DNA of 64,000 bases, taken from assembly GCF_021018745.1 (NCBI RefSeq), contig NZ_CP063845.1, positions 558,001 to 622,000 of the forward strand. The letters are read 5' to 3'. The first letter of the stretch is position 1, and each line of letters opens with the position of its first letter. Below the pieces are notes generated by a model that worked only from the letters and a program-made list of their open reading frames with translations, ran no database searches and had not been told where the DNA came from. The DNA is from Gloeobacter morelensis MG652769. Lineage in GTDB: Bacteria; Cyanobacteriota; Cyanobacteriia; Gloeobacterales; Gloeobacteraceae. Position numbers and translations under genes: made by a program. Below are positions 2-15,224 of this stretch, piece after piece.

Positions 2-976
2 GACCTCAAGCGATTGCTTGCAAACACCGGATTGACGGAAGAAGTCCTCTCCGATCCGGAATTCCAGACCGGGTTGCCACCACTTCGTCGGTTCTTTCTG
101 AATGCAATCGAACAGACCGGTGAACCGCATCTTGGGATCCGGCTTGCCCAGCAGTTCGAAGCCAACTTCATTGGCCTGCCGGCCTACGCCAGCATGAACG
201 CATCGACTTTCAAGGACGCGCTGGCGGTGTTGAGCCGCTTCTTCTTCCTGGCCTTCCCGGCGATTGAGTTCACATCTCCCGACAAGAACGCCGAGGTTCA
301 ACCCGGCGAATTCGCGATTCGGTTGCGACCGAAACTGCCGCTGGGCGACATCTCTTATTTTGCATCCGTCAGTGCCTTAGTGGCATGCGAGGGTCTGTGT
401 AAGGCGATCTTGCGCACGCCCAAGGCTGCGTTGCGCGGTGAGATGAGTATCAGCCAGCCCGAGGGATGGGCGCATGTCGAAGAGCAAATAGGCTTTCCCA
501 TCCGCTTCCAAGCCCCCGACATAAGGCTATTCTTGGCCGACGTGCTGTTGACCAGAGCATTGCCCGGAGCAGACCCGCTCAATCATCCGCGTCTCCTGGC
601 ACTTTGCGAACAGGTTGCAGAGAGAGCACGCGTCGAGACAACGCCTTTTAGCGAAGTCACCTCATTCCTCCAAGAAGGGCAGAATCTCGCCTTGCCAATC
701 TCGCAGGTCGCGGCAGCTCTTGGTTACTCCGAACGGAGTCTGCGTCGGCACCTGGAGCGGTCGGGCACAACATTCCGAAAGCTGACGAGCGAGATCCGCG
801 AGCAGAGGGCTCGCGGGATGCTTGCCAACACAGCCATACCGATCAAGACCATCGCTCACGACCTGGGTTTTGACACACCGTCGAACTTCGCAAGGAGCTT
901 CAAACGGTGGGCAGGCACCTCGCCTTCGGCCTTTCGCCTGGCACGGAGCGCAAAGGACATTTCTGGTCAAAACTGA
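2..976 (+). CDS. AraC-family transcriptional regulator (5' end outside the window)
   Basis: DNA-binding regulator of the AraC/XylS class with an N-terminal ligand-binding region of the OruR/ArgR type. The frame is open to the left edge, so the true start lies upstream; a TTG at 14 is only an internal possibility. About the last 100 residues form the double helix-turn-helix, with the first recognition helix around ISQVAAALGYSERSLRRHL and the second around IKTIAHDLGFDTPSNFARSF, followed by the usual RRF-like ending KRWAGTSPSAFR. It is read in the same direction as the sulfatase cassette that starts about 120 bases later and is its most likely regulator. The inducer cannot be read from the sequence. 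Confidence 0.9.
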   Translation, partial: DLKRLLANTGLTEEVLSDPEFQTGLPPLRRFFLNAIEQTGEPHLGIRLAQQFEANFIGLPAYASMNASTFKDALAVLSRFFFLAFPAIEFTSPDKNAEVQPGEFAIRLRPKLPLGDISYFASVSALVACEGLCKAILRTPKAALRGEMSISQPEGWAHVEEQIGFPIRFQAPDIRLFLADVLLTRALPGADPLNHPRLLALCEQVAERARVETTPFSEVTSFLQEGQNLALPISQVAAALGYSERSLRRHLERSGTTFRKLTSEIREQRARGMLANTAIPIKTIAHDLGFDTPSNFARSFKRWAGTSPSAFRLARSAKDISGQN

Positions 977-1097
977 ATAGCATTTGGCCGAGCGAGAACT
1001 TCTGCTTGGCTCCCTATCGTGCTTTAACGGTAATGTCATGAGCCGTGGGCCTGATCGCAAATGCATAGGCTTAGCAGCGGTTGCGAGGTTGCAGTCC

Positions 1098-2915
1098 ATG
1101 AAGAAACTCCATTCTGAACGTGCGTTGTCAGTCCTAACAGCGTCGGCGGTCGTGGCTCGGGCGGGCCTTTTCCTGTTTGCCTTGAGCCTGGCGAGTGCTG
1201 TTCCGGCCATGGCGAGAAACACTCGACCGAATATTCTGCTCGTGCTCTTCGATGACGTGGGCTTCATGGATTTCAGCGCATATGGCAGCGACACGCGGAC
1301 ACCGAACATCGATGCCCTGGCGAAAAAGGGGGTGATGCTCTCGCGCTACCACTCCTCACCCTTTTGCGGGCCGAGCCGTGCGATGCTCATGACGGGTATG
1401 GACAATCACCAGGTCGGCATGGGGACGCTGGTGGAAACGGTGACCCCGGAGATGCGCAAGCGCCCCGGTTACTCGATGCTCTGGAGCGCGAATCGAACGA
1501 CCGTTGCCAGCCTGCTATCCGCTGCGGGCTATAAGACCTATGTGACTGGCAAATGGGGCATTGGCGAGGCGGGGGCGAACCTTCCGAACCGGTTCGGGTT
1601 TGATCGGTCCTACGTGATGGATGCGACCGGCGGCAGCAATTACGATGCCAAACCGTATCTGCCGGGATACAACAATGTGGACTGGTTTGAAGACGGCAAG
1701 CCGATCAAGTTGCCCGACGATTACTATTCGTCGCGAACCCTCGTCGACAAGATGATCAAATACATCGATGCGGGCGACCCTGATGCGCCGTTCTTTGCGT
1801 TCCTGTCGTTGCAGGCCGTACACATCCCGGTGCAGGTGCCGACATCCTATATCGACGCCTATAACGGTGTGTTCGACGCTGGGTGGGATGTGATGCGCAA
1901 GGCGAGGCTGCAGCGGGCCATCGACATTGGGCTGGTCCCGCCCAGCACCAAACTGGCCTCGTCGCCCAAAACACATCGCGCATGGGACGATCTGACGCCT
2001 GAGGAACAGGCGCTTGCGGCTCGCGAGATGCAGGTCAATGCCGGGATGATGACAGCGGCTGACGAGCATATCGGACGCTTGCTGGCACACTTGGACGCCG
2101 CCGGAAAGCTGAAGAACACCGTCGTCATCATCACGTCCGACAATGGCGCTGAAGCGGGGGTTACCAAGTTTGAAGGGTTCGAAAACCTGATCGTGCGCGG
2201 GATCGAGTTGATCGAAGGCTTTGACACCTCACCGGAGAATCTGGGCCAGCCCGGCAGCCTGACAGCCATCGGGCCCGAATGGGCGTCGGTCTCGTCTGCG
2301 CCCTTCAATCTTTACAAGTTCTATAGCAGCGAAGGGGGCTTGCGGGTGCCCTTGATCGTGGCAGGCCCCGGGATCAAGGCGTCGGGCATCCTGGATGCGC
2401 CTGTCCATGTGGCCGATCTGGTGCCGACGATTCTGGATACGGCGGGTGTGTCCTTTGACGCAGCCGCCTTCTATGGGCGCAGCGCCTTGCCGGTGCTGGC
2501 CAGGCAGGCGGACCGCAGTCGGTCTGCGGACATGGGGTTTGGCTTCGAGGTGAGCGGCAATGCCGCGCTCTATCGCGGGCAGTGGAAGATTACGCGCCTT
2601 GCGCCACCTCTGGGTGACTCCAAATGGCGCCTTTATGATCTCTCGGCCGATCCGGGCGAGACCAGGGACGTGTCCGCCGGGAACCCCGAACTGTTTAAAA
2701 GCATGTTGGCCGAGTACTGGTCTTATTCCAAAAAGGTTGGCGTCTTTGAACTTGGCCCCGATGACTCCGCCTTCAAGCAGCTTTTCAAGAATCTCATGAC
2801 GAAAGCTTTGCACAAATATTGGCCCTATGCGCTCGGTATGATCCTCGCGTTTGCGGGAGCCCTTTACCTGGCCTTCCGAATGATCCGCATTCTTTTTCGC
2901 CGGGCTGTGGTCTGA
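1098..2915 (+). CDS. Exported arylsulfatase (formylglycine-type) with C-terminal membrane anchor
   Basis: Type I sulfatase that hydrolyses sulfate esters after a cysteine is oxidised to formylglycine. The signature CGPSR is at residues 90-94, so Cys90 is the modified residue; metal-binding parts include LFDDVG near residue 50 and TSDNGAE. I chose ATG 1098 because it starts a clean signal peptide (MKKLHSERALS, a hydrophobic core, then VPAMA before RNTRPN); an in-frame ATG at 984 would add 38 uncharacteristic residues. The last 35 residues hold one transmembrane helix followed by a basic tail, so the enzyme is probably periplasmic and tethered. Length is about 605 residues. It is followed by a DJ-1/PfpI protein and its likely maturase. 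The substrate is unknown. Confidence 0.93.
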   Translation: MKKLHSERALSVLTASAVVARAGLFLFALSLASAVPAMARNTRPNILLVLFDDVGFMDFSAYGSDTRTPNIDALAKKGVMLSRYHSSPFCGPSRAMLMTGMDNHQVGMGTLVETVTPEMRKRPGYSMLWSANRTTVASLLSAAGYKTYVTGKWGIGEAGANLPNRFGFDRSYVMDATGGSNYDAKPYLPGYNNVDWFEDGKPIKLPDDYYSSRTLVDKMIKYIDAGDPDAPFFAFLSLQAVHIPVQVPTSYIDAYNGVFDAGWDVMRKARLQRAIDIGLVPPSTKLASSPKTHRAWDDLTPEEQALAAREMQVNAGMMTAADEHIGRLLAHLDAAGKLKNTVVIITSDNGAEAGVTKFEGFENLIVRGIELIEGFDTSPENLGQPGSLTAIGPEWASVSSAPFNLYKFYSSEGGLRVPLIVAGPGIKASGILDAPVHVADLVPTILDTAGVSFDAAAFYGRSALPVLARQADRSRSADMGFGFEVSGNAALYRGQWKITRLAPPLGDSKWRLYDLSADPGETRDVSAGNPELFKSMLAEYWSYSKKVGVFELGPDDSAFKQLFKNLMTKALHKYWPYALGMILAFAGALYLAFRMIRILFRRAVV

Positions 2916-2967
2916 GCCGTTGAGCGACCAGCGGATTTTCAACATTAGCCAGTAACGGAGTATCACC

Positions 2968-3810
2968 ATGCACTGGAGCCTCTATCTTCTTATCGGGATC
3001 ATGGTTCTTCTTGGGATCATCGCGTACTATCTGCGTCCGATCCTTGCCGCGATGGGTTTGCACCGCCACTACACCATCCCGGATTTCGATCTGAAAGGGC
3101 GGCGCGCACTGGTCGTGTGTACGAACCACAACCGGCTTGACCCCCACAACAGGGATACCGGTGCCTTTGGCTCTGAGTTCACTGTTCCGTACTATGCTTT
3201 CATCAACGCCGGCATGGATGTAGACATGGCCTCACCCAAAGGTGGGGAAATCCCGATCCAGCCCCCGTCTTGGTCGTGGCCGCTCTCCTGCGAGGATGAT
3301 CGCCGGTTCATGGCGGACAAGGAAGCCATGGCGAAGCTGAAGAATTCCAAAAAGATCAGCGACCTCAAGCCTGATGACTACGACGTGATCTTCATGGCAG
3401 GCGGCTGGGGCGCAGCCTATGACCTGATGCAAAGTGAGGACCTGGCCGACTTCGTCACGCGGGCTAATGCCTCGGGCAAGATTCTGGGCTCGGTCTGTCA
3501 TGGCGCGTTGGGCTTGTGCAGCGCCAAGGGCATCGACGGTGAACCATTGGTCAAAGGGCGCCGAGTCACAGGTGTGACCAACGATCAAATCAATACGTTT
3601 GGCATCGCAGTCACGCCCAAGCATCCAGAGGAAGAACTGAAGAAAGCAGGCGCGATCTTTGAGTGCCAGCACGGATGGCTCGATCCATTCATGACGCATA
3701 CCTCCATCGACGGCAACCTGATCACCGGCCAGAACCAGAACAGCGGGTACGAGACGGCGCACCGCATCCTGGAAAGAATGGCGACGCAAATGAATGAGGT
3801 GGTAAGATGA
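2968..3810 (+). CDS. Membrane-anchored DJ-1/PfpI family protein
   Basis: Glutamine-amidotransferase-like fold of the DJ-1/PfpI/Hsp31 class, whose members act as glyoxalases, chaperones or proteases. The nucleophile elbow GSVCHGALGL puts the reactive cysteine at residue 177, after the glycine-rich AGGWGAAYDL. Residues 1-30 form a hydrophobic helix (SLYLLIGIMVLLGIIAYYL) that would anchor the protein in the membrane, which is unusual for the family. It lies 52 bases after the sulfatase, and its stop overlaps the start of the next gene by four bases (ATGA), so the three genes look co-translated. Its role in sulfatase function is not known; protection or repair of the envelope is only a guess. Confidence 0.88.
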   Translation: MHWSLYLLIGIMVLLGIIAYYLRPILAAMGLHRHYTIPDFDLKGRRALVVCTNHNRLDPHNRDTGAFGSEFTVPYYAFINAGMDVDMASPKGGEIPIQPPSWSWPLSCEDDRRFMADKEAMAKLKNSKKISDLKPDDYDVIFMAGGWGAAYDLMQSEDLADFVTRANASGKILGSVCHGALGLCSAKGIDGEPLVKGRRVTGVTNDQINTFGIAVTPKHPEEELKKAGAIFECQHGWLDPFMTHTSIDGNLITGQNQNSGYETAHRILERMATQMNEVVR

Positions 3811-4748
3811 CAAGACGTTGGGCGACCAACCGAAAGATCGACGGGCGGAGGGCGGTCTTGGTCATTGCGGCCGCAGCGCTCGGAACCGCAGTGACCGCAA
3901 CTTCGGCAGTGCTCCTTTGGCAGACTCAGAGCTGCCATTTTGGTCAAGACAATTTGGGAACCTTCGTCGACATCCCTGGAGGCGGGTTCGTCCAGGGAGA
4001 TTCTCCCCTGTATCCGGAAGAGGGTCCGCCTCGAAAGGTTTTTGTCTCGCCGTTTCGCTTGCAGGCCCATGAGGTGACCAACAGCCAATTCGCCGCCTTT
4101 GTGGAGGCCACGGGCTATGTGACCGATGCCGAACGAAACGGCGGCTCCGCACTGTTCAGAAAAAGCGACACGCCCGAGGTCTTTATGTCTTGGTGGTCTA
4201 TCGACACCGGCGCGACGTGGCGAACGCCGGAAGGCGCAGGCTCCACGCTTGACGGGCGGTCGCTCCATCCGGTTGTCCATGTCACGCTGAACGACGCCCG
4301 CGCCTATGCGGATTGGGCCGGCGGGCGTATCCCGACCGAAGTGGAATGGGAGTACGCAGCAAGCCTTGGCCTTTTCGACCCGATGAACCCGAAATCAGGT
4401 GCGCTTCGTCCAGATGGCACGCTGCGCGCCAATATCTGGACGGGGTTGTTCCCCACTCTGAACTCGCGCCAGGACGGCTATGCGGGGACCGCCCCCGTGG
4501 GGTGTTTCGAGCCCGGACTGACCGGCGCCTACGACATGATCGGCAACGTCTGGGAATGGACCGAGACACCCTTTAGCTCAGCCGTGCCCCGTTTCACTAT
4601 CAAGGGCGGATCCTACCTGTGCAGCGAGACCCACTGCCAAAGGTACCACGTGGCGGCGCGCCAGAGCCTCGAGGAGGATTTCAGCACCGCCCATATCGGC
4701 TTTCGAATTGTCCTGGATGCGCAGTCGTTACCCGCAGCCAAGCCATGA
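3807..4748 (+). CDS. Formylglycine-generating enzyme (sulfatase maturase), membrane-anchored
   Basis: SUMF1/FGE-family protein that oxidises the sulfatase active-site cysteine to formylglycine. The catalytic cysteine pair is visible in GGSYLCSETHCQRYHVAAR (Cys272 and Cys277), matching the conserved copper-binding pair of true FGEs rather than EgtB-like relatives. Other family marks are the HEVTNSQFAAFVEATGY block near residue 90, GGRIPTEVEWEYAA near 172 and GNVWEWTETPF near 246. Residues 14-38 form a hydrophobic N-terminal segment after several arginines, a signal anchor that would place the domain outside the cytoplasm. The start overlaps the DJ-1/PfpI stop (ATGA). It almost certainly serves the sulfatase two genes upstream. 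Confidence 0.93.
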   Translation: MTRRWATNRKIDGRRAVLVIAAAALGTAVTATSAVLLWQTQSCHFGQDNLGTFVDIPGGGFVQGDSPLYPEEGPPRKVFVSPFRLQAHEVTNSQFAAFVEATGYVTDAERNGGSALFRKSDTPEVFMSWWSIDTGATWRTPEGAGSTLDGRSLHPVVHVTLNDARAYADWAGGRIPTEVEWEYAASLGLFDPMNPKSGALRPDGTLRANIWTGLFPTLNSRQDGYAGTAPVGCFEPGLTGAYDMIGNVWEWTETPFSSAVPRFTIKGGSYLCSETHCQRYHVAARQSLEEDFSTAHIGFRIVLDAQSLPAAKP

Positions 4749-4785
4749 GTAGTGCGGGGCGCCACGGAAAACGAAGGGGTACCGT

Positions 4786-4860
4786 ATGAAGCACCGCCTT
4801 TTCACCACCAGCCTTCTGAGGGCGTCAATTTCCGGGGGGTGCGCCGGTTTTCCTAGGATA
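4786..4860 (+). pseudogene. Possible truncated first codons of a fourth cassette gene
   Basis: An ATG at 4786 is preceded at proper spacing by AAGGGG and encodes MKHRLFTTSLLRA, which looks like the start of a signal peptide. It then runs into unrelated sequence and, in the same frame, into the separate pRiA4b-like gene. I read it as the stump of a gene downstream of the maturase, cut at the edge of the transferred segment at roughly 4820-4860. The evidence is short, so confidence is low. Confidence 0.3.
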
Positions 4861-4902
4861 AGACTCGCTAGGATATCCCCGGAGTCGCGAGCCGGACAGC
4901 CC

Positions 4903-5599
4903 ATGCAGATCTACCAACTTAAGCTTGTCCTGCGCGGCATCAGCCCTCAGATCTGGCAGCGGGTGCTTGTGGACAAAGACACCTCCCTGGCTGACCTGCA
5001 CCAGATCTTTCAGATCGCCATGGGCTGGCAAGATCAGCATCTGCACCGCTTCCGCATCTACGGCAAGGACTTCGGCCTCACCTACCCAGGTGGACATATC
5101 TTCAGCGATGACCCGCAGCTGGTCCAGCTCTGCCAGTTTCGCCTCCGACCGGGTGAACGCTTCCTCTATAGAGTACGACTTCGCCGACCGCTGGCAACTG
5201 GATGTCCGTCTGGAAGCAATTCTGCCTGCCGAAGCACAGCAGGTCTACCCAGTCTGCACCGCAGGCAAACAGGCCTGTCCGCCTGAGGAGTGCGGTGGCG
5301 TAGAGAACTACCTGGCCCAACGCCGCCTGCTATGGCAGACTGAGCCACAGGATCTGGAGGTGTTGACGGAATTTACTATACAGGTGGCACAGCGTCAGCC
5401 CGAGGATCCGGCCCTGGGTCTGGCTCAAGGCAGCGAGGAGTATGCCGCTCTGGTCCTTGCAGCTCAGCGCACCCAGGCCCGAGAGCACCTGAAAGCCGGG
5501 AGCTTTAATCGGCACGAGCTCAACCAGCAACTGTGTGCCCTGCCCTTGTGTTGCGAGGTCAGTGATGCACTTTCAGCTCCAGGTGGTCTGCACCGATGA
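4903..5599 (+). pseudogene. Plasmid pRiA4b ORF-3-like protein, broken by one inserted base
   Basis: The first part (MQIYQLKLVLRGISPQIWQRV, then MGWQDQHLHRF) and the later part (EYDFADRWQLDVRLE, then CTAGKQACPPEECGG) together match the pRiA4b ORF-3 family, found on plasmids and in mobile DNA and of unknown biochemical role. They lie in different frames. The family's YDFGDxW block is restored if the single A at 5170 is removed, giving FLYEYDFADRW across the join. With the base present, the first frame ends at 5286. The rest runs without stops to 5599, so this is one fresh lesion in an otherwise complete gene. An IS701-type element lies about 230 bases downstream. Confidence 0.8.
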
Positions 5600-5826: not shown

Positions 5827-7205
5827 CCCTGATCTGTCAAACTGGGTACAATGATCGCTGCGAACCTCTTGCTGGAGGGCTTTGCGGTCATGACCACTCC
5901 AAGAGAACCCCATAGTACGATCTCTTTCGTAGATCAATACTGCTCCGTTTATCAACATTTGTTTGCAGATGTCCGAACTTTTGAATGCTTCAAAAGCTTG
6001 CAACTCGGATTAATTTCCGAGGTCAAACGGAAAACCTTGCCCGCGATTGCCAAGGCGGTGGGCACCGATGCCCAAGCTTTTCATCATTTTTTGGTCAACT
6101 CTCCTTGGTCAGTCAAAAGCTTTAGAGAACAACGGATTACGCTCACCAAACAAGCACTGAACGGACGGGCTATTACCGTCTGCATTGATGAAACCGGCGA
6201 CAAGAAAAAGGGAAATAAAACCGACTATGTTTCCAGGCAATACATTGGCAACGTCGGCAAGATAGACAACGGCATCGTTTCGGTTCATGCCTTCGGTTTG
6301 CTGGGGAATATCACCTTTCCTCTGCTGTTCAGAGTTTTCAAGCCCGAACGCCGTCTCCAAGAGAGTGACCAGCACAAGAGTAAACCCAAAATCGCCGCCG
6401 ATTTGATCGATGAACTGTGCGAACATGGGTTCAATATTGGGCTGGTGGTGGCGGACAGCCACTACGGAGAAAGCAGCGATTTTATCGACACCTTGCGGAA
6501 GCAGCAATTGCACTATGTCGTCGCCATCCGCTCCAATCATGGAGTGTGGATGCTCAAGGGTTGGGTTGTCCGCTGCAACCGCTGGAAAATGTTCGAGCGT
6601 CACTTCAGCAATGGCAAGACAGAAACTCGTTACCTCCGCGAGATCATTTTTGGCAAACGCAAGGCAACGCGATACTACCAAATCACGACGGACACCGAGA
6701 AACAGCCGGAGGAAAGTACTTGGTACGTGATGACCAATTTGCCTGGAAAAATCGAAAAGACGGTAGGCAACTTGTTTGGAGACAGAACTTGGGTTGAGTA
6801 CTGTTTTCGCCAGGTCAAAGCGGAATTGGGCTGGAAAGATTACAAGTTGACAGCCTATCCATGCATCGAGAAGTGGTGGGAGATGGTGTACGGTGCCTAC
6901 GGGATGGTCAGTTTGCAAACTCCAACGATGAAAGGAGAAGACCTTGAAGAACATACTGTCGGCGCAGCGAGCAAAAGCGACCGCTGTCCTGAGATCTGGA
7001 TCAACCACAAATGGTGGGATGAAAAACAAGGATGGAAAGCGGTTTTGAACAACATGCGGCTGCTGGTTCAGCCATTGGTTTGCCTGAGTTTATTGATGCC
7101 CTGGTTGCAGGTAATCGACTTGACTGGCTTGGGAGAAGCACTTCAAGATCTTGTAGATAAACTCAACGGTTTTGCAGTCTTCCTCCGACTTTGACAGAAT
7201 CAGGG
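5827..7205 (+). mobile_element. IS701-type insertion sequence
   Basis: A complete-looking element of about 1.38 kb. The left end CCCTGATCTGTCAAA (5827-5841) matches, with one base missing, the reverse complement of the right end (TTTGACAGAATCAGGG, 7190-7205), giving imperfect terminal inverted repeats. The flanking four bases are CTAT on the left and CTAA on the right, three of four matching, which fits the short duplication of this family but is not clean. The single transposase gene fills the element. Confidence 0.8.
5890..7194 (+). CDS. IS701-family DDE transposase
   Basis: Catalyses cut-and-paste transposition of the surrounding element. The family pattern is clear: CIDETGDKKKG followed by YVSRQYIGNVGKIDNGIVSV carries the first acidic residue, LVVADSHYGES the second, and WVEYCFRQVKAELGW the third. 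Length is about 434 residues, normal for the family, and the frame is uninterrupted. I prefer ATG 5890 (MTTPREP), with GGAGG about 11 bases before it, over ATG 5851, which has no visible ribosome site. Base composition looks more A+T-rich than the neighbouring chromosomal genes, as expected for an acquired element. Confidence 0.92.
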   Translation: MTTPREPHSTISFVDQYCSVYQHLFADVRTFECFKSLQLGLISEVKRKTLPAIAKAVGTDAQAFHHFLVNSPWSVKSFREQRITLTKQALNGRAITVCIDETGDKKKGNKTDYVSRQYIGNVGKIDNGIVSVHAFGLLGNITFPLLFRVFKPERRLQESDQHKSKPKIAADLIDELCEHGFNIGLVVADSHYGESSDFIDTLRKQQLHYVVAIRSNHGVWMLKGWVVRCNRWKMFERHFSNGKTETRYLREIIFGKRKATRYYQITTDTEKQPEESTWYVMTNLPGKIEKTVGNLFGDRTWVEYCFRQVKAELGWKDYKLTAYPCIEKWWEMVYGAYGMVSLQTPTMKGEDLEEHTVGAASKSDRCPEIWINHKWWDEKQGWKAVLNNMRLLVQPLVCLSLLMPWLQVIDLTGLGEALQDLVDKLNGFAVFLRL

Positions 7206-7533: not shown

Positions 7534-8721
7534 TCACTGCATCGCCAACGCCTCGCCCATCGCCTCCGGGTACTTGAGGGCGGAGCCGGTGTTGATGAGC
7601 ACCACCCGGTCGCGGGCTGTCAGATCGCCGCGCTCGCGCAGGATTTTGGCAGCAGCCAGGGTAGCGGCTCCTTCCGGCGCTGCAAAAATTCCTGTACGAC
7701 CAGCTAAAAGCTTCATCATCTCGCCGCACTGCGCGTCGCTCACAGCGACAGCAGTGCCGCCGGTCTCGCGCACCGCCCGCAGCACCAGAAAATCACCCAG
7801 GGCCTTGGGTACGCGCAAACCGGAGGCGAAGGTACGGGCATCCGGCCAGAATTCGGAATCGGCGCGGCCCTCCTCAAAAGCCTTGACCAGTGGAGCGCAG
7901 CCTTCGGCCTGCACGACGATGAGCCGGGGCAACTCCCCCGTCACCCAGCCTATCGCCTTCAGTTGCTGCAAGCCCCGCCAGATGCCGATAATCCCGACGC
8001 CACCCCCGGCCGGGTAGAGGATGGCATCGGGCAACTGCCAGTCCAGCTGCTCGGCAATTTCAAGACCCAGGGTCTTCTTGCCCTCGATGCGGTAGGGCTC
8101 CTTGAGGGTCGAGACATCGAACCAGTCGTGCTCGCGCACCCCCTGGGCGATCCGTTTGCCCGCATCTGAAATCAACCCGTCAACCAAGACCAGATCCGCG
8201 CCGTACAGACGGCATTCGAGCTGGTTGATGACCGGAGCATCCCTGGGCATCGCCACGTGCACGCGCAAACCGGCGGCGGCTCCGTAGCAGGCCCAGGCGC
8301 CGCCCGCGTTGCCCGCCGTGGGCAGGGCCACCTCCCGGATACCGAGTTCTCTAGCCTTCGAGATGCCGCAGGAAGCGCCCCGCGCTTTGAACGAGCCGGT
8401 GGGATTGAGCCCGTCGTCTTTGAGCCAGACCGCCTCCAGCCCCCAGTCCCGAGTGAGCGCAGCGATGGATAGGAGCGGTGTGAACCCTTCGCCGAAGCTC
8501 ACGATGTGGGTCGGGTCCACCACGGGCAGCAGTTCCAAGTAGCGCCACATCGACTCGCCGCGCCGGGCGAGCGTTGCTTTATCCACCGCCGATTGCACCT
8601 TTTCGAGGTCGTACTCGGCCAGTAAAGGCGAAGCGCAGGCGGTGCAAAGGTTATGGGCTTTGTGGGGGTCGAAGCGGCTGCCGCAGCGTGGGCAAACCAA
8701 ATGGCTGATAAATGCAGGCAT
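7534..8721 (-). CDS. thrC: Threonine synthase
   Basis: PLP enzyme of fold type II that converts O-phosphohomoserine to threonine, the last step of threonine synthesis. The PLP-binding lysine is Lys112 in GLNPTGSFKARG; the phosphate-binding glycine loop is YPAGGGVGIIG, and INTGSALKYPEA near the C-terminus is typical. An N-terminal zinc-ribbon-like part (CPRCG and CTACA) marks the ThrC form common in cyanobacteria and archaea. It is full length at 395 residues. Its C-terminal coding part and its first codons recur at 14321-14529 as a decayed copy. A CAP-domain gene is read divergently from about 100 bases upstream in both copies. Confidence 0.93.
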   Translation of the reverse strand: MPAFISHLVCPRCGSRFDPHKAHNLCTACASPLLAEYDLEKVQSAVDKATLARRGESMWRYLELLPVVDPTHIVSFGEGFTPLLSIAALTRDWGLEAVWLKDDGLNPTGSFKARGASCGISKARELGIREVALPTAGNAGGAWACYGAAAGLRVHVAMPRDAPVINQLECRLYGADLVLVDGLISDAGKRIAQGVREHDWFDVSTLKEPYRIEGKKTLGLEIAEQLDWQLPDAILYPAGGGVGIIGIWRGLQQLKAIGWVTGELPRLIVVQAEGCAPLVKAFEEGRADSEFWPDARTFASGLRVPKALGDFLVLRAVRETGGTAVAVSDAQCGEMMKLLAGRTGIFAAPEGAATLAAAKILRERGDLTARDRVVLINTGSALKYPEAMGEALAMQ

Positions 8722-9232
8722 CGCGACTATTCCAGGCGGCAGAAGCTCAAGCGGACAGTGATTCCATAGTATGAGAGCTGTAGGGATTGCACGCCCCGGC
8801 GCTCGTGGGCAGGAAAGGTATTTTCGTGCACCTGTTCAGACGAAACACCTTCGTGTGGTTGGTCGCTGCTTTCGGTTCATTCCTCGCTCTGGCTGGCTGC
8901 CAGACCGTCGGGGATCTGACCGCCGAGGCGAAAGCCTTTGTCGAGCGGGCGACACCGCCCTCCCAACCGCCCGCCGCTGGGACTGAGAAGCCCCAGACGG
9001 CCGCCCTGGGCCAGATGGAGGAGCGCGTCGTGCGCGATGTCAACGCGATCCGCGAGCGCAACGACCTCGCATCCCTCAAGCCCAACGCCAAGCTCGCCCA
9101 GGTGGCCCGCAACTACAGCCGATTGATGGCCGAGCGGAACTTTTTCAGCCACACCGGCCCCAAGGGCGACAGCGTCGCCGACCGGGTGCGCTCGGCAGGA
9201 ATCTTTTATCTGGTGGTGGGGGAGAACCTGGC
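7671..9232. repeat. Left copy of the thrC-CAP segmental duplication
   Basis: This stretch recurs in the same orientation at 14321-15040. Both copies begin at CTTCCGG and end inside the CAP gene at GAGAACCTGGC. By eye most bases agree, with scattered substitutions, so the duplication is not recent. Here thrC is whole and the CAP gene is cut. The other copy lacks about 840 bases corresponding to roughly 7843-8684. Confidence 0.9.
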
Positions 9233-9236
9233 TTAA
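8826..9236 (+). pseudogene. Truncated CAP-domain lipoprotein gene (left duplicate)
   Basis: Nearly the same protein as the intact gene at 14634-15224 through GENLA, where a stop follows at once. It therefore lacks the second half of the CAP domain, including the SPGHRENIL part. The start is a GTG at 8826 with GGAAAGG seven bases upstream. The lipobox ALAGC follows the hydrophobic signal. The cut coincides with the left edge of the defence island and with a short inverted-repeat element. The remaining 136 residues may still be made as a lipoprotein, but the fold would be incomplete. Confidence 0.85.
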
Positions 9237-9238
9237 TG

Positions 9239-9368
9239 TCAGTTCGGGATAAGAAAAGGCAGTCCGGTAGGCTGGGATTACCACACCACCAACCCAAGAC
9301 CGCCCATGCTCAGTCTAGAAGCCTTGTTTTGCCCGATGCTGAGCTGCTCCTGGCTTAACCCGAACTCA
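9239..9368. repeat. MITE-like inverted-repeat element
   Basis: About 130 bases flanked by imperfect inverted repeats: TCAGTTCGGGATAAG at the left, and on the reverse strand of the right end TGAGTTCGGGTTAAG. It carries no gene and sits exactly where the left CAP copy ends and the island begins. No parent element is visible here. Confidence 0.5.
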
Positions 9369-9397
9369 CGTGTCATTGTGGATACTGGGGGGTCGAT

Positions 9398-10597
9398 TCA
9401 CTCTGCGCGAAAAATGTTGATCTTTGTCTCGAGGCACTTTCGCAGGTACATGTCGTTCGCGCCGATTTCAAACCAACTGAGTGGCTTCTGGTAGATGTCA
9501 AGACCGCGGCCAATCTTAATGATCCAACCATTATCAAGGCGGACTTCGCGGTCGTGAATATTTTGGCTGAACTCGATATCGAGTGTGATGTCAAGTTCGA
9601 GAAGGCTTTGCTTGAGGTCGCCAAGCTTCGCCTGGATCTCGGATAGTAGGATATCATCACCGTGAGACGTGATGAGTTTGATCCGCTTACAGGTCTGAGC
9701 CTTGACGACTGTTTCACAAAAACGGACAAAATTTTGGATTTGATGGGGAGCTCGGATGTAAGGATCTTCAATCAAAAGTGAAGTAGCACCTTGAAGGTAG
9801 GGACCGAAAATTGAATCGTAGCTGTAGCCTGTGTCCCCGTAGTAGACGGTAAAATGTTGCTCCTTTAGAGTGGGTACTTGTGGTGCCTTTTTGTCTTCTC
9901 GTGAATACTTATCTGTTCCATTTGCATCTGTCGGCTGTGCAGGTGTTCTGCTTTCCATCTTCGTGGCAGTTGGCTTCTTTATCGCGGCCAAGGCACGCCG
10001 AATCGGATTTTGCGTGGCGGCGGCATCCTTAGACTCCGGGCAAAAAACAACCACTTCTTCACCCTTTGTGGAGTAATAGGAGAGGTTAATACGAGCAAAC
10101 TCGTCGCCAGGCTTGCGCTTGTTCATCTGCTCTTTAACACGGCGTCTGCACTCGATTGCGTAGGCAACGTACTCTTCAAATTCTTGATCACTCGGACTTG
10201 TGCCAGGATGCAAAATTTTGAGAAAGGCGGCCACTGTCTTCTTGATTCCTTTTTCGTCTCGGCCCTCCACAGCCTTGCCGAGCTGAATGCGTTTGGTAAC
10301 CTCCTCGTAGCGGTTTGTGCGCTGGAATAAGTGATGAAAAGCTTCAGCCAGGTAATCGGTGATAAAGCCGTAGTTGTTGGTTAAGTACTCGCTGCTGTTC
10401 TTAGGCATTTCCCAGCCTGGCAAGTAACAGGCAAAGCGGTCCATCACGGCAAGGTCGAACTCACTTGGTAACGGCTGAAACAGGTCGTGCTGGCTAGAGT
10501 GGACAATTTGCTCAACAGACATATCGATATTGCCAACAAAGGCCAGGCTTGCGTCCGCGATAACCTCGACGCCCCGGGAGAAGCGGCCATTGGCCAT
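9398..10597 (-). CDS. brxL: BrxL-like protein of a BREX system, N-terminally truncated, with MIT_C/PLD-like C-terminus
   Basis: C-terminal part of BrxL, the Lon-related AAA+ protein of type 1 BREX phage defence. Recognisable blocks are GRFSRG, ASLAFVGNID, FACYLPGWEMPK, YGFITDYLAEAFHHLF, and RRRVKEQMNK followed by NLSYYSTKGEE. Usual BrxL proteins are around 680 residues; here only 400 remain. The Walker A part and N-terminal domain are missing. The frame stays open upstream to 10738, but only EPRQF just before the ATG resembles the family, so the break lies near 10610. From about residue 245, HFTVYYGDTGYSYDSIFGPYL and LIEDPYIRAPHQIQNF look like the phospholipase-D-like MIT C-terminal domain. 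It is probably not a working ATPase. AbiEii ends 67 bases upstream. Confidence 0.75.
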   Translation of the reverse strand: MANGRFSRGVEVIADASLAFVGNIDMSVEQIVHSSQHDLFQPLPSEFDLAVMDRFACYLPGWEMPKNSSEYLTNNYGFITDYLAEAFHHLFQRTNRYEEVTKRIQLGKAVEGRDEKGIKKTVAAFLKILHPGTSPSDQEFEEYVAYAIECRRRVKEQMNKRKPGDEFARINLSYYSTKGEEVVVFCPESKDAAATQNPIRRALAAIKKPTATKMESRTPAQPTDANGTDKYSREDKKAPQVPTLKEQHFTVYYGDTGYSYDSIFGPYLQGATSLLIEDPYIRAPHQIQNFVRFCETVVKAQTCKRIKLITSHGDDILLSEIQAKLGDLKQSLLELDITLDIEFSQNIHDREVRLDNGWIIKIGRGLDIYQKPLSWFEIGANDMYLRKCLETKINIFRAE

Positions 10598-10664
10598 AAA
10601 CTGGCGAGGCTCATGTAGGCACCAGTTTTGAGCGCTGGAAGGAATTGAAACCTCCCGACTGTGT

Positions 10665-11576
10665 CTACGTCCAACCCTTACCAGGAGTCCAGATTGCCTG
10701 CAACTCTTGCATTTGTGCGGCAGCTCTTGCCGGGGGCATTAGAAACTGTTGTAAGGCACCGACTACCTCCTCAAGAGCAAGTTGAGGCATTTGCGATGGA
10801 TTTTTTCGCACGAGCGCATTCCATTGTTGAATTTTGGACGGGTCTGCAAAAAATGTGGCTGTTAATCCTTCTGGTAGCTCCTCAGGAATTTCTCTGCCCC
10901 TACGATCAAAAGTGTTGCGTATCGCTTCAGCCAGTATCGCTCCGTTAAACTCAAACAACTTCTGCAGGAAGAATATGTCGTAGTAGTCCTTCATTCGGCT
11001 GTTGGCCAGATTGACCATGGTTTCAAATTTCTCAGCAACGACGGTCTCTATTGGGTAGATGCGCAGTCTGGGTGTCGGGCTTTCGGGCAGGATACATGGG
11101 TACTCGCGCCATTCTGCTGTGGGAGTAACAGCATCTCCAAAGCTAATATCAAATTGCACGGTTACCCTAATATCTCCAAGTTTTGCACCAAAATTAAGCC
11201 GGGTTCCTCCGTACTGCTGCTCTTCTTTGATGGGTTCGTTTCTGATATCTTTTACCAGAAACATCAGCCCATCTTTCTCTACGTCTAGGGAGCATATTTC
11301 ATTGAATACACTGACAAGATATTCCGGATCGCTCTGACCAAATACCAGCACGTCTACATCGCGAGTAGATCGGTAGGGCTGATCTGTCCACAGCGATATC
11401 AGCATTCCACCTTTGAGAATAAAAAGCTCGGCATATTTGGACTTGCTGAGCCTGTACAGCGCCCGCTCCAGGGCGTAGCGCTCGACTACGAACTGGAAAT
11501 TCTCTCCGGTCTTTTTGGATTTCTCCAGGAGGCGCTGTCTCACCGATGCGGCTATGTTCCTTACCGGTTTCGGCAT
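10665..11576 (-). CDS. abiEii: AbiEii-type nucleotidyltransferase toxin (type IV toxin-antitoxin)
   Basis: Toxin of the AbiE phage-abortive-infection pair. The nucleotidyltransferase signature is seen as LKGGMLI (residues 54-60) followed by STRDVDVLVFG (70-80) with Asp73 and Asp75. VVAEKFETMVNLANSRMKDYYDI near residues 179-201 is the second family block. It is 303 residues, a normal length, with no lesion. It starts nine bases after the AbiEi stop on the same strand, as in known AbiE operons. The family's RNA-directed nucleotidyl transfer is known from relatives; the target here is not known. Confidence 0.9.
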   Translation of the reverse strand: MPKPVRNIAASVRQRLLEKSKKTGENFQFVVERYALERALYRLSKSKYAELFILKGGMLISLWTDQPYRSTRDVDVLVFGQSDPEYLVSVFNEICSLDVEKDGLMFLVKDIRNEPIKEEQQYGGTRLNFGAKLGDIRVTVQFDISFGDAVTPTAEWREYPCILPESPTPRLRIYPIETVVAEKFETMVNLANSRMKDYYDIFFLQKLFEFNGAILAEAIRNTFDRRGREIPEELPEGLTATFFADPSKIQQWNALVRKNPSQMPQLALEEVVGALQQFLMPPARAAAQMQELQAIWTPGKGWT

Positions 11577-11585
11577 CCCTATTCC

Positions 11586-12209
11586 TCACGAAGATAGTTC
11601 AATAATCGTTTCGAGGTAGGGCTGCATCACTCTGGCAACGCGGCAAATCCTGGCGTAGTGCAGCAGATCCGCCACGGAAGCGCGGCGGCGGCGGTAGCAA
11701 TCGCGCAGTGCCTCCAGCGCCACATCCAGGCCAACCTGGTTTCGAAATTTGAAGCAGTCGGCGACGGTTTTGGCAGGGCAGAAAATTCGCACCGGGATGG
11801 CTTCGATCTGATGGATCTCGACTCCGGCGCTCAGAGAGGCTTCCGACATGCGTATGGGGCGCAGCCGAGTTTCTACCGTTTTGGGTGGCTGAGCTTTGTT
11901 GGCAATTGCAAACCAGACCACTGACGGTTGCTGGGTTGTCAGTCCGTGAAATTGCAGGGCCGATAGCAGACAGACGACACCCTGCGGCGCACGAAAGGCC
12001 GGCTCCACCAGGCTGTGATGAATGCTGGGTTCAACCCTCAGGTCCCGCCAGACACCGGGCGACACCTGCTCGACAAGTCCCTGTCTTTCCAGGGCGCGCA
12101 TCGCCTGGGTTCGGCGACGATGTGTTTTGACCACCTGGCGTGGCCGAACAAGGGAAGCCTTCCGAAGAAATGCCCGCAGATTCCCGCTCTTACTAGCTTT
12201 TGCAGCCAT
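11586..12209 (-). CDS. abiEi: AbiEi-type antitoxin / autorepressor
   Basis: Antitoxin partner of AbiEii, with an N-terminal winged-helix DNA-binding part and an AbiEi C-terminal domain (GVVCLLSALQFHGLTTQQP, then FCPAKTVADCFKFRNQVGLDVALEAL). I place the start at ATG 12209 (MAAKASKSG), which has AAAGG eight bases upstream. The longer start at 12257 would put the operator-like inverted repeat inside the coding region and lies next to the -10 box. Known AbiEi proteins repress their own operon by binding inverted repeats in the promoter, which agrees with the repeat found here. Confidence 0.87.
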   Translation of the reverse strand: MAAKASKSGNLRAFLRKASLVRPRQVVKTHRRRTQAMRALERQGLVEQVSPGVWRDLRVEPSIHHSLVEPAFRAPQGVVCLLSALQFHGLTTQQPSVVWFAIANKAQPPKTVETRLRPIRMSEASLSAGVEIHQIEAIPVRIFCPAKTVADCFKFRNQVGLDVALEALRDCYRRRRASVADLLHYARICRVARVMQPYLETIIELSS

Positions 12210-12219
12210 TTTTCTACCT

Positions 12220-12263
12220 TTGCCTCGGTACTTTCTAAAAAGTACCGAGGCAATCACATTATA
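12220..12263 (-). promoter_or_regulatory. abiE promoter with perfect 14-bp inverted repeat (operator)
   Basis: TTGCCTCGGTACTT (12220-12233) and AAGTACCGAGGCAA (12240-12253) are exact reverse complements separated by six bases. Just upstream on the minus strand is a consensus -10 box TATAAT (12258-12263). The repeat thus covers the expected transcription start and leader of abiEi, the right place for autorepression. No good -35 box is seen. Confidence 0.75.
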
Positions 12264-12310
12264 GATCAGTTAAAAGTCTTTTCCAGCAAGGACTTGAGCC
12301 ACACAAAAAC

Positions 12311-12808
12311 TTATTGTATTTCTCTGCGAGTGCGGCGAGTACGTTGGGAAGCTGGGGGAGTCACAGGTTCCTCGTAGAGGTCTTCGAGAGCGTGGGCAAT
12401 GGCGAGGGATTTATCCTTACGGCACTTCTCGCGGACGCGCTCGGGCCAGATGGTGTACGCAAGATGTGCCCAGTCGTACTCACCCTGCTCCAGGCTCTCC
12501 CAGGTTTCTTTGAGCTTCTTCTGCCACTTGGGCAGTCGGAAGAGCCTCCAGAGGGGAGTGGCGGTGATCTGGACACCATCGTTGAGGTTGGGACGCCAGG
12601 GTAGTTGAGCAACGCGCAACAACTCATCGCGCAGGTCGGTCAGTTCTAGTTCAAGTTCCTGTAACTCCTCAAACTGCTTCTCCTCCGCCCGATTGCGACT
12701 GGATTGGCTCCGCAGCTTGTCCGCTGCTTCGCGCACACTGTGCAACTTTGGCTCGACGTAATCGTTGACGCAGGTGTACAGCGTCTGGTCGTTGCTGTCG
12801 TTCGTCAT
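12311..12808 (-). CDS. Stand-alone protein resembling the C-terminal part of PglX-type methyltransferases
   Basis: A 165-residue protein. Residues 70-150 carry a pattern I associate with the C-terminal tail of PglX/Eco57I-like BREX methylases: LPWRPNLNDGVQITATPLW, then EYDWAHLAYTIWPERV and DKSLAIAHALEDLYEEP. The N-terminal half is charged and probably coiled-coil. No methyltransferase motif (NPPY or a SAM-binding glycine motif) is present, so it cannot methylate by itself. The start is ATG 12808, whose first bases overlap the stop of the nuclease gene before it (ATGA), indicating coupled translation. It is either a functional split subunit or the remnant of a larger pglX. The assignment rests on memory of the family pattern. 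Confidence 0.65.
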   Translation of the reverse strand: MTNDSNDQTLYTCVNDYVEPKLHSVREAADKLRSQSSRNRAEEKQFEELQELELELTDLRDELLRVAQLPWRPNLNDGVQITATPLWRLFRLPKWQKKLKETWESLEQGEYDWAHLAYTIWPERVREKCRKDKSLAIAHALEDLYEEPVTPPASQRTRRTRREIQ

Positions 12809-13839
12809 CGGCTCACTCCGCAGGTCTGGGCAAGTTGCACGAAAAGTTGCTCCTGGACGGAGGAGGGTGTGGCTTCTCCGCTCAGCAAGCTCTTGAGCCG
12901 CTCGTAGCTTGTGTCGGCCCCGAACAGTTCCGATGCGCGATCGCCCAGGGAGCGGACGGTATCCCGGTGCAGCCCCTTGCAATGATGGGCGAGGATGCAG
13001 CTGCCCAGGCAGGTTTGCTGAAAATGGGTCTTCAGATGCGGGGCTGCCGCTTCAATCGGTGTGCTCTGGTCCGTGCTTAGCTCTGCAAGCCGGGCGACAA
13101 CATCCGCGAGCGATTCGACGGCACGGCGCACCTCCCGCAGTTCGGCATCGAGGTGCTCCTCGAAGATGGGGTGGGGCTTCATGCCGTAGGGCGAGCCGAA
13201 AATGAAAACGGCGTGGCTGTCCACCCGACCACCAAGCCCGAAGCGCGAAAGCGTGTCTTTGAGAGCGAGGATTTCGACTGCTGCCTGTAACCGGGCTGGC
13301 TCCAGTTTGTCCGCGTTGGCACCGCTTTTTCTTAAGATGCCCGACTTGGCCTCACCGGGCCGGTAGATTCCCGCGAGCCGATTGAAGATCAGTACATCCG
13401 GGGCGATGAGCATTCGGTCCTTGCCGGGAAGGTGCAACTGCAACTGCGGTTGGACCAAGAGATCCGGTACCAGATTGCCCGAGGACAGGTCGGCGAAGAC
13501 CTCCGCAGTCGCCTCCAATCGCCGAAGGGCGGCTTCGGCCCCTTTGCCCGGCTCCTCGACGCGGAAGTCTCGCACTGAGAGCGACGCAGGGTCCAGACCG
13601 TACCGCTTGCCCACCTCCTCGCGCAGCACTCGGGCACCGTCGGCAAAGAGCTTTTCCTCGAACTGGTTCCCGCGGCGGATGGCCGAGGCTCTCTGGCCGT
13701 ACTCCCCGTCGAATTCCCGTCCGGTAATCAGACGATGCATCTGGCGTTCGCCGATGCGTTCGCGGACCATGAATGCTTGCAACTGACACTCGGGGTTGCG
13801 GGACAACCGGATCAGGCCACGGGAACCGGAAGTGCTCAT
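12805..13839 (-). CDS. Cas4/RecB-like PD-(D/E)XK nuclease with probable 4Fe-4S cluster
   Basis: A 344-residue protein. A nuclease core is suggested by APDVL (Asp148), then PGEAKS with Glu163 and Lys165, then a Gln at 185 in LQAAVEI, in the order D-ExK-Q of RecB-family nucleases. Cys18 (NPECQLQ) together with Cys277, Cys281 and Cys287 (TCLGSCILAHHC) gives the one-plus-three cysteine layout of Cas4 and AddB iron-sulfur nucleases. The start at 13839 is chosen because GAGGAG stands directly before it; the longer frame to 13971 has no such site. It is the first gene of the island operon and overlaps the PglX-like gene. No cas1 or cas2 is nearby, so a role in CRISPR adaptation is unlikely. Confidence 0.7.
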   Translation of the reverse strand: MSTSGSRGLIRLSRNPECQLQAFMVRERIGERQMHRLITGREFDGEYGQRASAIRRGNQFEEKLFADGARVLREEVGKRYGLDPASLSVRDFRVEEPGKGAEAALRRLEATAEVFADLSSGNLVPDLLVQPQLQLHLPGKDRMLIAPDVLIFNRLAGIYRPGEAKSGILRKSGANADKLEPARLQAAVEILALKDTLSRFGLGGRVDSHAVFIFGSPYGMKPHPIFEEHLDAELREVRRAVESLADVVARLAELSTDQSTPIEAAAPHLKTHFQQTCLGSCILAHHCKGLHRDTVRSLGDRASELFGADTSYERLKSLLSGEATPSSVQEQLFVQLAQTCGVSR

Positions 13840-14320
13840 CGTTCGCTCCTCGGAATCGAAATTACACCTGGGGACGAGAAACGCAGAAGCCTTGCAACCG
13901 GCAAGAAGCAGCGCGCCGCAACCGACTGCGAGCGTGCGCCTATCTATTTGGGCAGCCATTGCGATTGTCAAAACCAGCCCGGGGCGGGGAGAAGAACACC
14001 AACGGCGCCGTCCGCCGCCCGCAAAACAATAGTACTGTAGCGCCTATTTAATTGCAAGGGTAATTAAATTTATTTTCTGGGTTTTCATTGATGGTCAACG
14101 TCCTCAGAGCCGCGAAGAGAGCGCCTGTAGCCTACTGACCAACGGGCTGCTCGGATATCGAAGTGCCGGGCCAGAATATCGTCCGACACTCGGGTAGGAT
14201 TCGCCCCTGGTAGTTCGGAAGGAGACAACATTGATCAAGCTGAGGGGTATCAAAATGCCGAATTGAGCTGGTCTCCAACCGGGTGGGAAGGGTATGGCCC
14301 CTAGAGCAGGTGTCAGGTGT
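13840..14320. other. Upstream region of the defence island
   Basis: About 480 bases with no convincing gene. The part next to the nuclease gene is G+C-rich, followed by an A+T-rich stretch around 14040-14090 that probably holds the promoter. The right end abuts the decayed thrC copy. Confidence 0.55.
14046..14069. promoter_or_regulatory. Inverted repeat in the island promoter region
   Basis: ATTTAATT and AATTAAAT are exact inverted repeats separated by eight bases (GCAAGGGT), about 210 bases upstream of the nuclease gene in an A+T-rich stretch. It may be an operator; nothing identifies the protein that would bind it. Confidence 0.35.
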
Positions 14321-14529
14321 CTTCCGGTGCTGCAAATATCCCGGTGCGACCGGCTAAAAGTTTCATCATCTCACCGCACTGCGCGTCGCTGACGGCGATG
14401 GCGGTGCCGCCGGTTTTGCACAGCGCCTGCAGCACCAGAAAATCACCCAGGGCCTTGGGTACGCGCAAACCGGAGGCAAAAGTGCGGGCATCAGCGTGGG
14501 CAAACCAAATGGTTGATAAATGCAGGCAT
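14321..14529 (-). pseudogene. Decayed thrC copy (ends only, middle deleted)
   Basis: On the minus strand the ATG at 14529 and the first dozen codons of threonine synthase (MPAFINHLVC) join, after a deletion of about 840 bases, to a piece from the C-terminal third of the gene. The true 3' end is absent. The bases match 7671-7842 and 8685-8729 of the intact copy with scattered changes. It cannot make an enzyme. Confidence 0.88.
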
Positions 14530-15040
14530 CGCGACTATTCCAGGCGGCAGAAGCTCAAGCGGGCACTTATCTCATAGTATGAGAGTCATAGGGAGCTTCC
14601 GCCCCGGTGCGCGCGGGTGGGAAAGGTATTTTCGTGCACTTGTTTAGCCGCAACACCCTGCCATGGATAGCCGCAGCACTCTGTGCGTGCCTTGCCCTGG
14701 TTGGCTGTCAGACCTTCGCAGATTTGACCAGCGAGGCAAAAGCCTTCATCGAGCGGGCGGCACCGCCTTCCCAGCCGCCCGCCCCGGGGACCGAGAAACC
14801 CCAGACGGCCGCCCTGGGTCAAATGGAGGAGCGCATCGTGCGCGACATCAACGCGATCCGCGAGCGCGGCAACCTTGCCCCCCTCAAGCCCAACGCCAAG
14901 CTCGCCCAGGTAGCCCGCAGCTACAGTCGATTGATGGCCGAGCAGAACTTTTTCAGCCATACCGGTCCCAAGGGCGACAGCGTCGCCGACCGGGTGCGCT
15001 CGGCGGGGGTTTTTTATCTGGTGGTGGGCGAGAACCTGGC
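14321..15040. repeat. Right copy of the thrC-CAP segmental duplication
   Basis: Direct repeat of 7671-9232 with an internal deletion in thrC. Beyond 15040 the CAP gene continues intact here, while in the left copy the island begins. Confidence 0.9.
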
Positions 15041-15224
15041 CTACGTCGGCGGCTCAAAGCGACCGGTCGAAATTGCCGTGCAAGGCTGGATGAAAAGCCC
15101 CGGTCACCGCGAGAACATCCTGCGGCCGGTCTACATGGAGACAGGGGTGGGCGGCTGGAAAAAGGGCAACCGGATCTACTTCACCCAGGTGTTTCTGACC
15201 CAGGTGTCGATTAGAAACCGCTAA
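14634..15224 (+). CDS. CAP-domain (SCP-like) lipoprotein, intact copy
   Basis: Secreted CAP-superfamily protein of unknown biochemical role. The start is GTG 14634 with GGAAAGG seven bases upstream. A hydrophobic signal ends in lipobox ALVGC with Cys25, so it is a predicted lipoprotein. A proline-rich linker follows, then the CAP domain from about residue 50, with NFFSHTGPKGDSVADRV, VVGENLAYVGG and WMKSPGHRENIL. It is 196 residues long. A second copy, cut after GENLA, lies at 8826-9236. It faces the DUF2780-like gene, with a small hairpin between them. Confidence 0.87.
   Translation: MHLFSRNTLPWIAAALCACLALVGCQTFADLTSEAKAFIERAAPPSQPPAPGTEKPQTAALGQMEERIVRDINAIRERGNLAPLKPNAKLAQVARSYSRLMAEQNFFSHTGPKGDSVADRVRSAGVFYLVVGENLAYVGGSKRPVEIAVQGWMKSPGHRENILRPVYMETGVGGWKKGNRIYFTQVFLTQVSIRNR

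Follow-up and report, generated by a model that had tools for sequence, protein, structure and literature searches.

In eukaryotes the formylglycine-generating enzyme (FGE) resides in the endoplasmic reticulum (ER), and in prokaryotes it is placed in the cytosol (PMC4505483). Described bacterial FGEs, such as the Streptomyces coelicolor enzyme (2q17) and those of 5nxl/6s07, act on CxPxR sulfatases and carry a copper-binding cysteine pair. The FGE analysed here shares their core and their cysteine pair. In contrast to these enzymes, which are described as cytosolic, it is signal-anchored and has two further cysteines, C43 and C233. Its gene belongs to a cassette at positions 2-4748 of a 64,000-nucleotide stretch (hereafter the window), which spans positions 558001-622000 of one contig (NZ_CP063845.1) in the 5.10 Mb, three-contig genome of Gloeobacter morelensis. 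The cassette further encodes an AraC-family regulator, a sulfatase and a DJ-1/PfpI protein. The best explanation of the locus, which we regard as likely, is a horizontally acquired sulfatase-maturation cassette with an FGE acting on the periplasmic side. Judged by sequence comparison, the arrangement is real, conserved and transferred.

The four genes and their anchors were confirmed. A sequence-only reading of the window had described consecutive, partly overlapping sulfatase, DJ-1 and FGE genes behind an AraC regulator. It had also described N-terminal helices on the DJ-1 protein and the FGE, and a signal peptide and a C-terminal helix on the sulfatase. Open reading frames and Pfam matches lie where this description places them, and the hydrophobic segments are present. 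The features are as follows.

2-976, plus strand: 3' part of the AraC-family regulator gene (PF12625 and PF12833)
1098-2915, plus strand: formylglycine-type sulfatase, with a signal peptide of Sec type and a membrane helix at the C-terminus (PF00884, 197 bits)
1365-1367, plus strand: codon of Cys90, predicted formylglycine residue (CGPSR) and sole cysteine of the sulfatase
2829-2885, plus strand: C-terminal transmembrane helix of the sulfatase (Kyte-Doolittle value, KD, 1.9), followed by RILFRRAVV
2968-3810, plus strand: DJ-1/PfpI protein (Hsp31/YDR533c-like) with N-terminal membrane helix (PF01965, 62 bits)
3807-4748, plus strand: FGE with N-terminal signal anchor (PF03781; PDB FGEs with E down to 3e-74)
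3852-3920, plus strand: N-terminal membrane helix of the FGE, N-in/C-out by charge (KD 2.0)
3933-3935, plus strand: codon of FGE Cys43, proposed disulfide partner of Cys233 from their co-occurrence
4503-4505, plus strand: codon of FGE Cys233, found only among FGEs with an export signal
4620-4637, plus strand: codons of FGE Cys272-Cys277, catalytic copper-binding pair (CSETHC), from alignment with human and bacterial FGE
5833-7198, plus strand: insertion sequence of the IS701 family (NF033540; terminal inverted repeat 5833-5846/7185-7198), boundary of the cassette and not a member

The full AraC gene encodes 354 amino acids (aa; L007:9912-10976) and starts 89 bases before the window. The start codon of the FGE and the stop codon of DJ-1 overlap in the sequence ATGA at 3807-3810. 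The arrangement is more than chance, because gene order and anchors recur in other genomes.

The FGE domain scores 210.5 bits against a cut-off of 23.3 and covers profile positions 4-254 of 255, with FGE structures as the top PDB matches. The motif GGSYLCSETHC holds C272 and C277, which are equivalent to human C336 and C341 and invariant in 11 orthologues. All 11 cassette orthologues (11/11) combine this catalytic pair with an N-terminal helix. With these residues and a CGPSR sulfatase as its neighbour, the cassette FGE is predicted to convert the cysteine of that motif to formylglycine. The genome encodes two more exported Cys-type sulfatases (CCPSR). Its other FGE-family protein lacks the catalytic cysteine pair (GGSWVSGPAVLR), which leaves the cassette FGE as the only FGE there with this pair, and no radical-SAM maturase scores above the profile cut-off in the genome. 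By these profile matches, the cassette FGE is the only recognisable source of formylglycine in the genome.

The cassette FGE probably faces outward. Its net charge is +5 before the helix and -1 after it. Summed over the 11 orthologues, the charge is +32 before the helix versus +2 over the 15 residues after it, and an N-in/C-out pattern is found in 10 of the 11. Many related FGEs, in Alphaproteobacteria and in the phylum of L021, have lipoboxes or signal peptides in place of the anchor. Processing of a lipobox takes place at the outer side of the membrane. Among 45 FGEs with an export signal, 29 have C233, versus 0 of 20 without such a signal (Fisher 2.8e-7), and each of the 29 also has a cysteine just before the core, which is C43 in the cassette FGE. 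Judged by this co-occurrence, the C43/C233 pair looks like a disulfide, as expected in an oxidising compartment. The chains of 5nxl/6s07 and 6muj align from the core onward only and carry Ala or Ser where the cassette FGE has C233. Charge bias and cysteine pair thus agree with the proposal in the sequence-only reading of a signal-anchored, outward-facing FGE with both catalytic cysteines, and they point away from a cytoplasmic FGE domain, which that reading had named as its refutation. Its remark that bacterial FGE is usually cytoplasmic agrees with the literature, but exported FGEs are common among the sampled genomes.

The apparent pairing of FGE location with the export route of the partner sulfatase is the more interesting result and reaches beyond the window. 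Around further FGEs, about 15 kb were covered. The closest sulfatase no more than 3 kb away was taken, its N-terminus was read, and each sulfatase was assigned to its nearest FGE. In the first set, all 27 sulfatases adjoining an exported FGE were themselves exported, 25 of them Sec-like and 2 carrying a weak twin-arginine motif. Cytosolic FGEs of this set stand beside 5 cytosolic, 4 twin-arginine (DRRSLLIG) and 2 Sec-like sulfatases. Signals for twin-arginine translocation (Tat) in several sulfatases first scored as cytosolic were found on reading whole N-termini, which was done after the first result was known. The pairing rule was then fixed before 17 plasmid FGE loci were taken as a further set. 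The single exported FGE of the plasmid set has an exported partner (1/1), and the eleven cytosolic FGEs have cytosolic (9), Tat (1, SRRGFLAG, Streptomyces) and Sec (1, Paracoccus ferrooxidans) partners. L178, exported by the fixed rule through an upstream extension of the open reading frame and cytosolic by its annotated start, was counted as cytosolic. Over both sets, exported sulfatases stand beside exported FGEs in 28 of 28 cases versus 8 of 22 beside cytosolic FGEs (Fisher p 3e-7, a value that overstates the evidence because FGE-sulfatase pairs are related by descent). The partners of cytosolic FGEs comprise 14 cytosolic, 5 Tat-motif and 3 Sec-type sulfatases.

Tat substrates fold before export, and Sec substrates leave the cytoplasm unfolded. 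Hence only a cytosolic FGE would reach the unfolded site of a Tat substrate, and a Sec substrate could be modified on either side. On balance, we lean towards two bacterial FGE classes, one cytosolic and one exported by anchor, signal peptide or lipoprotein, with the class following the export route of the partner sulfatase. An exported FGE with a disulfide bond would mature Sec-exported sulfatases in the periplasm, and cytosolic or Tat-exported sulfatases would be matured in the cytosol. The cassette is probably one case of such compartment matching. Searches of the open-access literature turned up no exported bacterial FGE acting on sulfatases and no link of Tat with formylglycine, and an earlier description in subscription papers is possible.

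An N-terminal CC motif (e.g. KKACCTPHSG) is present in many FGEs that lack an export signal, and the listed exported FGEs do not have it. The motif occurs in several phyla including haloarchaea (L078, L082, L087, L088, L090, L094, L095, L176, L177, L183-L185, L188 and L191) and possibly serves metal delivery.

A scan with the sulfatase yielded 18 loci. The order AraC, sulfatase, DJ-1, an optional small membrane protein, an optional second anchored DJ-1 and FGE recurs, whole or in part, in Roseibium, Asticcacaulis, Aquisalinus, Parvularcula, Rubrimonas and sphingomonads. It is also found in three metagenome-assembled genomes (MAGs) from a single phylum, two bearing the label Armatimonadota. The search in proteobacteria suggested with the first description was therefore successful. 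Sulfatases in Alphaproteobacteria and Armatimonadota-labelled MAGs with the same order are 63-81% identical to the Gloeobacter protein. An AraC homologue is present at 13 of the 18 related loci, and relatives of a lipoprotein of about 310 aa, which has no Pfam or NCBIfam match, at 14 of 18. In Gloeobacter the lipoprotein gene (L007:6299-7240) lies some 2.8 kb before the window, with an IS3 element (inverted repeats L007:7891-7915/9176-9200) between it and AraC. The small membrane protein of related cassettes is missing from the Gloeobacter locus. Calling the cassette self-contained was thus too strong, with a conserved lipoprotein displaced and a membrane protein absent. At the Roseibium hamelinense locus (L026), both the C-anchored sulfatase and the anchored DJ-1 protein occur as two paralogues (3760-5589, 7986-9761, 9825-10658, 11304-12140).

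Horizontal acquisition of the cassette is well supported by its distribution and by trees. The same gene order with anchors is found in other phyla and is absent from the sampled relatives, the closest of which are three members of the same genus and two other genera in its family. An orthologous sulfatase is present in 1 of 292 cyanobacterial genomes, namely this one, and a search of 59 relatives for an orthologous FGE was negative (best match 51% over part of the protein). The window sulfatase groups with L021-L024 (support 100/99) inside an otherwise proteobacterial set, and the window FGE falls within the cassette clade (99). The sequence-only reading had called the content transferred and had named trees placing the genes firmly within cyanobacteria as a refutation. 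The sulfatase and FGE trees place them elsewhere, and the base composition is not unusual. The guanine-cytosine content of the cassette (0.593) lies within the spread of the window (0.615 +/- 0.033) and was dropped as evidence of transfer. No donor is named because taxonomic labels of MAGs are unreliable. In one congener (G001) the genes flanking the cassette lie about 107 kb apart in a rearranged region, and no clean empty site was found in the congeners.

The best start of the sulfatase is the ATG at 1098, which gives 605 aa. Cys90 lies in the motif SSPFCGPSRAMLMTG, and the C-x-P-S-R signature together with the PF00884 domain identifies an S1 formylglycine sulfatase. The signal peptide ends in VPAMA and has no twin-arginine motif. 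The C-terminal helix is followed by a +3 tail, and a helix with a positive tail is found in all related sulfatases. The catalytic domain is predicted outside and the C-terminal tail inside. The closest solved structure is the Pseudomonas aeruginosa arylsulfatase AtsA/PAS (1hdh; 336 bits over 42-551), which is likewise of the CxPSR type. The PAS chain lacks a signal peptide and a C-terminal helix, unlike the cassette protein. PAS His115 is the proposed elimination base (PMC5066984). Its position is Gly (GKWGIG, window 1548-1565) in 17 of 17 cassette-type sulfatases and His (GKWH) in two outgroup proteins; other catalytic positions are retained. This Gly was considered as a novel catalytic change and downgraded, as the solved S1 enzyme 7ana has the same residue (GKWGLG). 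The missing His115 equivalent does not exclude S1 membership for the same reason, and by this alignment the Gly marks a subfamily and not new chemistry. The lone cysteine of the sulfatase was rejected as a sign of periplasmic maturation, since the aligned part of the PAS chain also has no other cysteine.

The DJ-1 protein has a confident AlphaFold2 (AF2) model (predicted local distance difference test, pLDDT, 90.6) with an N-terminal helix at residues 3-28. In Foldseek its soluble part is Hsp31/YDR533c/REP24-like (REP24 4p5p, template modelling score 0.92). The catalytic residues Glu70, Cys177 and His178 are invariant in 17 aligned proteins. Fold and Glu-Cys-His residues are shared with the Hsp31/YDR533c/REP24 group (glyoxalase III, chaperone), from which the cassette protein differs by its N-terminal membrane helix and by adjoining sulfatase and FGE genes. 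Viral contigs gave no match to the DJ-1 protein. H1, a near plasmid match, has an unrelated gene context, and the region of H15 is without annotation.

Several observations weigh against a periplasmic FGE and against strict compartment matching, in addition to the shared descent of the pairs. The topology of FGE and sulfatase was judged by hydrophobicity and charge rules only. Export state changes twice and C233 four times on the FGE tree, so that an independent-pairs test cannot reach significance, and the cysteine/export association is, on this tree, a matter of clade-level signatures. Across the four C233 changes, the N-terminal cysteine follows about three times and never goes the opposite way, which is too few for a test. 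Three Armatimonadota-type cassette FGEs lack C233 and also lack C43, hence the pair is not universal. The AF2 model of the FGE built from 11 sequences (pLDDT 33) is too low in confidence to read a C43-C233 distance. Orthologous sulfatases occur without an FGE at the locus in L024, L025, L027, L029 and L032. Exceptions to the pairing rule are Sec-type sulfatases beside FGEs without an export signal, at L020, L124 and L186 (Paracoccus ferrooxidans plasmid pFER3). A cytosolic FGE can thus apparently serve a Sec-type sulfatase, and periplasmic maturation would not be obligatory. The same three loci fit an FGE that is membrane-bound but acts before export, with an anchor that only concentrates it near the Sec translocon and a core in the cytoplasm. 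Such an enzyme would agree with the published cytosolic location (PMC4505483), but the N-in/C-out charges in nearly all orthologues, the outer-face lipoboxes of many relatives and the restriction of the C233/C43 pair to FGEs with an export signal make it unlikely.

The cassette FGE could also have lost formylglycine making and act as a structural protein or another oxidase with the FGE fold, comparable to periplasmic PvdO or PorK/GldK. Other functions are known for exported proteins with this fold (PorK, PMC12421860; OCTIN, PMC5915273), and PvdO and PorK appear among the FGE structure matches, though far behind the true FGEs. The invariant catalytic pair and core, the adjoining CGPSR sulfatase and the lack of another Cys-pair FGE in the genome render this explanation improbable. 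Contamination or an assembly chimera in place of transfer might be suggested by the closest relatives, which are MAG contigs of other phyla. However, the contig around the cassette is 4.92 Mb long and belongs to a genome that is 99.96% complete, the cassette is flanked by insertion sequences and ordinary genes of the genus (e.g. a threonine synthase 92% identical in a congener), and FGE and sulfatase are at most about 81% identical to any relative found, which makes an artefact extremely improbable. A further proposal is compatible with a transferred cassette and a periplasmic-side FGE. The DJ-1 protein could be a dedicated outer-face accessory of sulfatase maturation, either a chaperone or a thiol/aldehyde guard. 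In 12 of 17 loci the gene comes immediately after that of the sulfatase (54-89% identity, with Cys, His and Glu invariant), the fold is of Hsp31 type, and a second anchored paralogue lies directly upstream of the FGE in L023, L026 and L028. The flanking charges are nevertheless ambiguous (sums over 17 proteins of +13 on the N side and +17 on the C side), and the presence of DJ-1 does not track FGE, with FGE but no DJ-1 at L033 and L034 and DJ-1 but no FGE at L024, L025, L027 and L032. To our knowledge, DJ-1 proteins have no established connection with sulfatases. An accessory role for the conserved DJ-1 protein is possible, but the specific outer-face role proposed in the sequence-only reading is doubtful.

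The periplasmic-side reading suggests the following course of events. The sulfatase would exit the cytoplasm unfolded through Sec and remain anchored in the inner membrane through its C-terminal helix, with a periplasmic catalytic domain. The signal anchor would insert the FGE N-in/C-out, and a C43-C233 disulfide would stabilise it. On the periplasmic side, the copper site (C272/C277) and O2 would turn Cys90 of CGPSR into formylglycine. The AraC regulator probably controls the cassette genes, and the Hsp31-like protein, anchored on one or the other side of the membrane, probably has an auxiliary role as a chaperone or in handling aldehydes.

Other features of the window stand apart from this course of events. 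A pRiA4b ORF-3-like gene (PF07929, window 4786-5599), apparently frameshifted, lies between the cassette and the IS701 element. At 8787-15224 a duplicated CAP-domain lipoprotein gene, its first copy truncated, flanks a defence-like island. The island encodes an AbiEii toxin (10665-11576), a probable AbiEi (11586-12257) and, at 9398-10597, a 399-aa protein in which part of a BrxL-type ATPase is fused to a MIT_C phospholipase D-like domain.

A periplasmic bacterial FGE class, if true, would install formylglycine on proteins already exported, in a setting with a different copper supply and redox state. The use of Sec or Tat for export and the site of maturation would then evolve together. Such a class could help to explain the poor maturation of some sulfatases expressed with cytosolic FGE and would supply a membrane-bound enzyme for aldehyde tagging in the periplasm. 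The locus also shows that a maturation module moved between phyla into a cyanobacterium without another Cys-pair FGE.

Among known exported members of the fold, PvdO and PorK/GldK share the periplasmic location proposed for the cassette FGE. They match it weakly over part of the domain only and have no link to sulfatases. Human FGE (SUMF1, 1y1e), in the ER lumen, is closer in acting on the exoplasmic side, as predicted for the cassette FGE, and on Sec-exported substrates, and both would have extra disulfides and cysteines in the N-terminal extension. The human structural disulfides are 218-365 and 235-346 (PMC4505483). They differ from the C43/C233 pair, which is apparently convergent, and human FGE is soluble whereas the cassette FGE is anchored. 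If compartment matching holds, the eukaryotic ER arrangement would have a bacterial counterpart, which raises the question of whether the ER system is convergent or inherited. The ER-lumenal FGE acting on eukaryotic sulfatases would then be the analogue of the periplasmic step proposed here.

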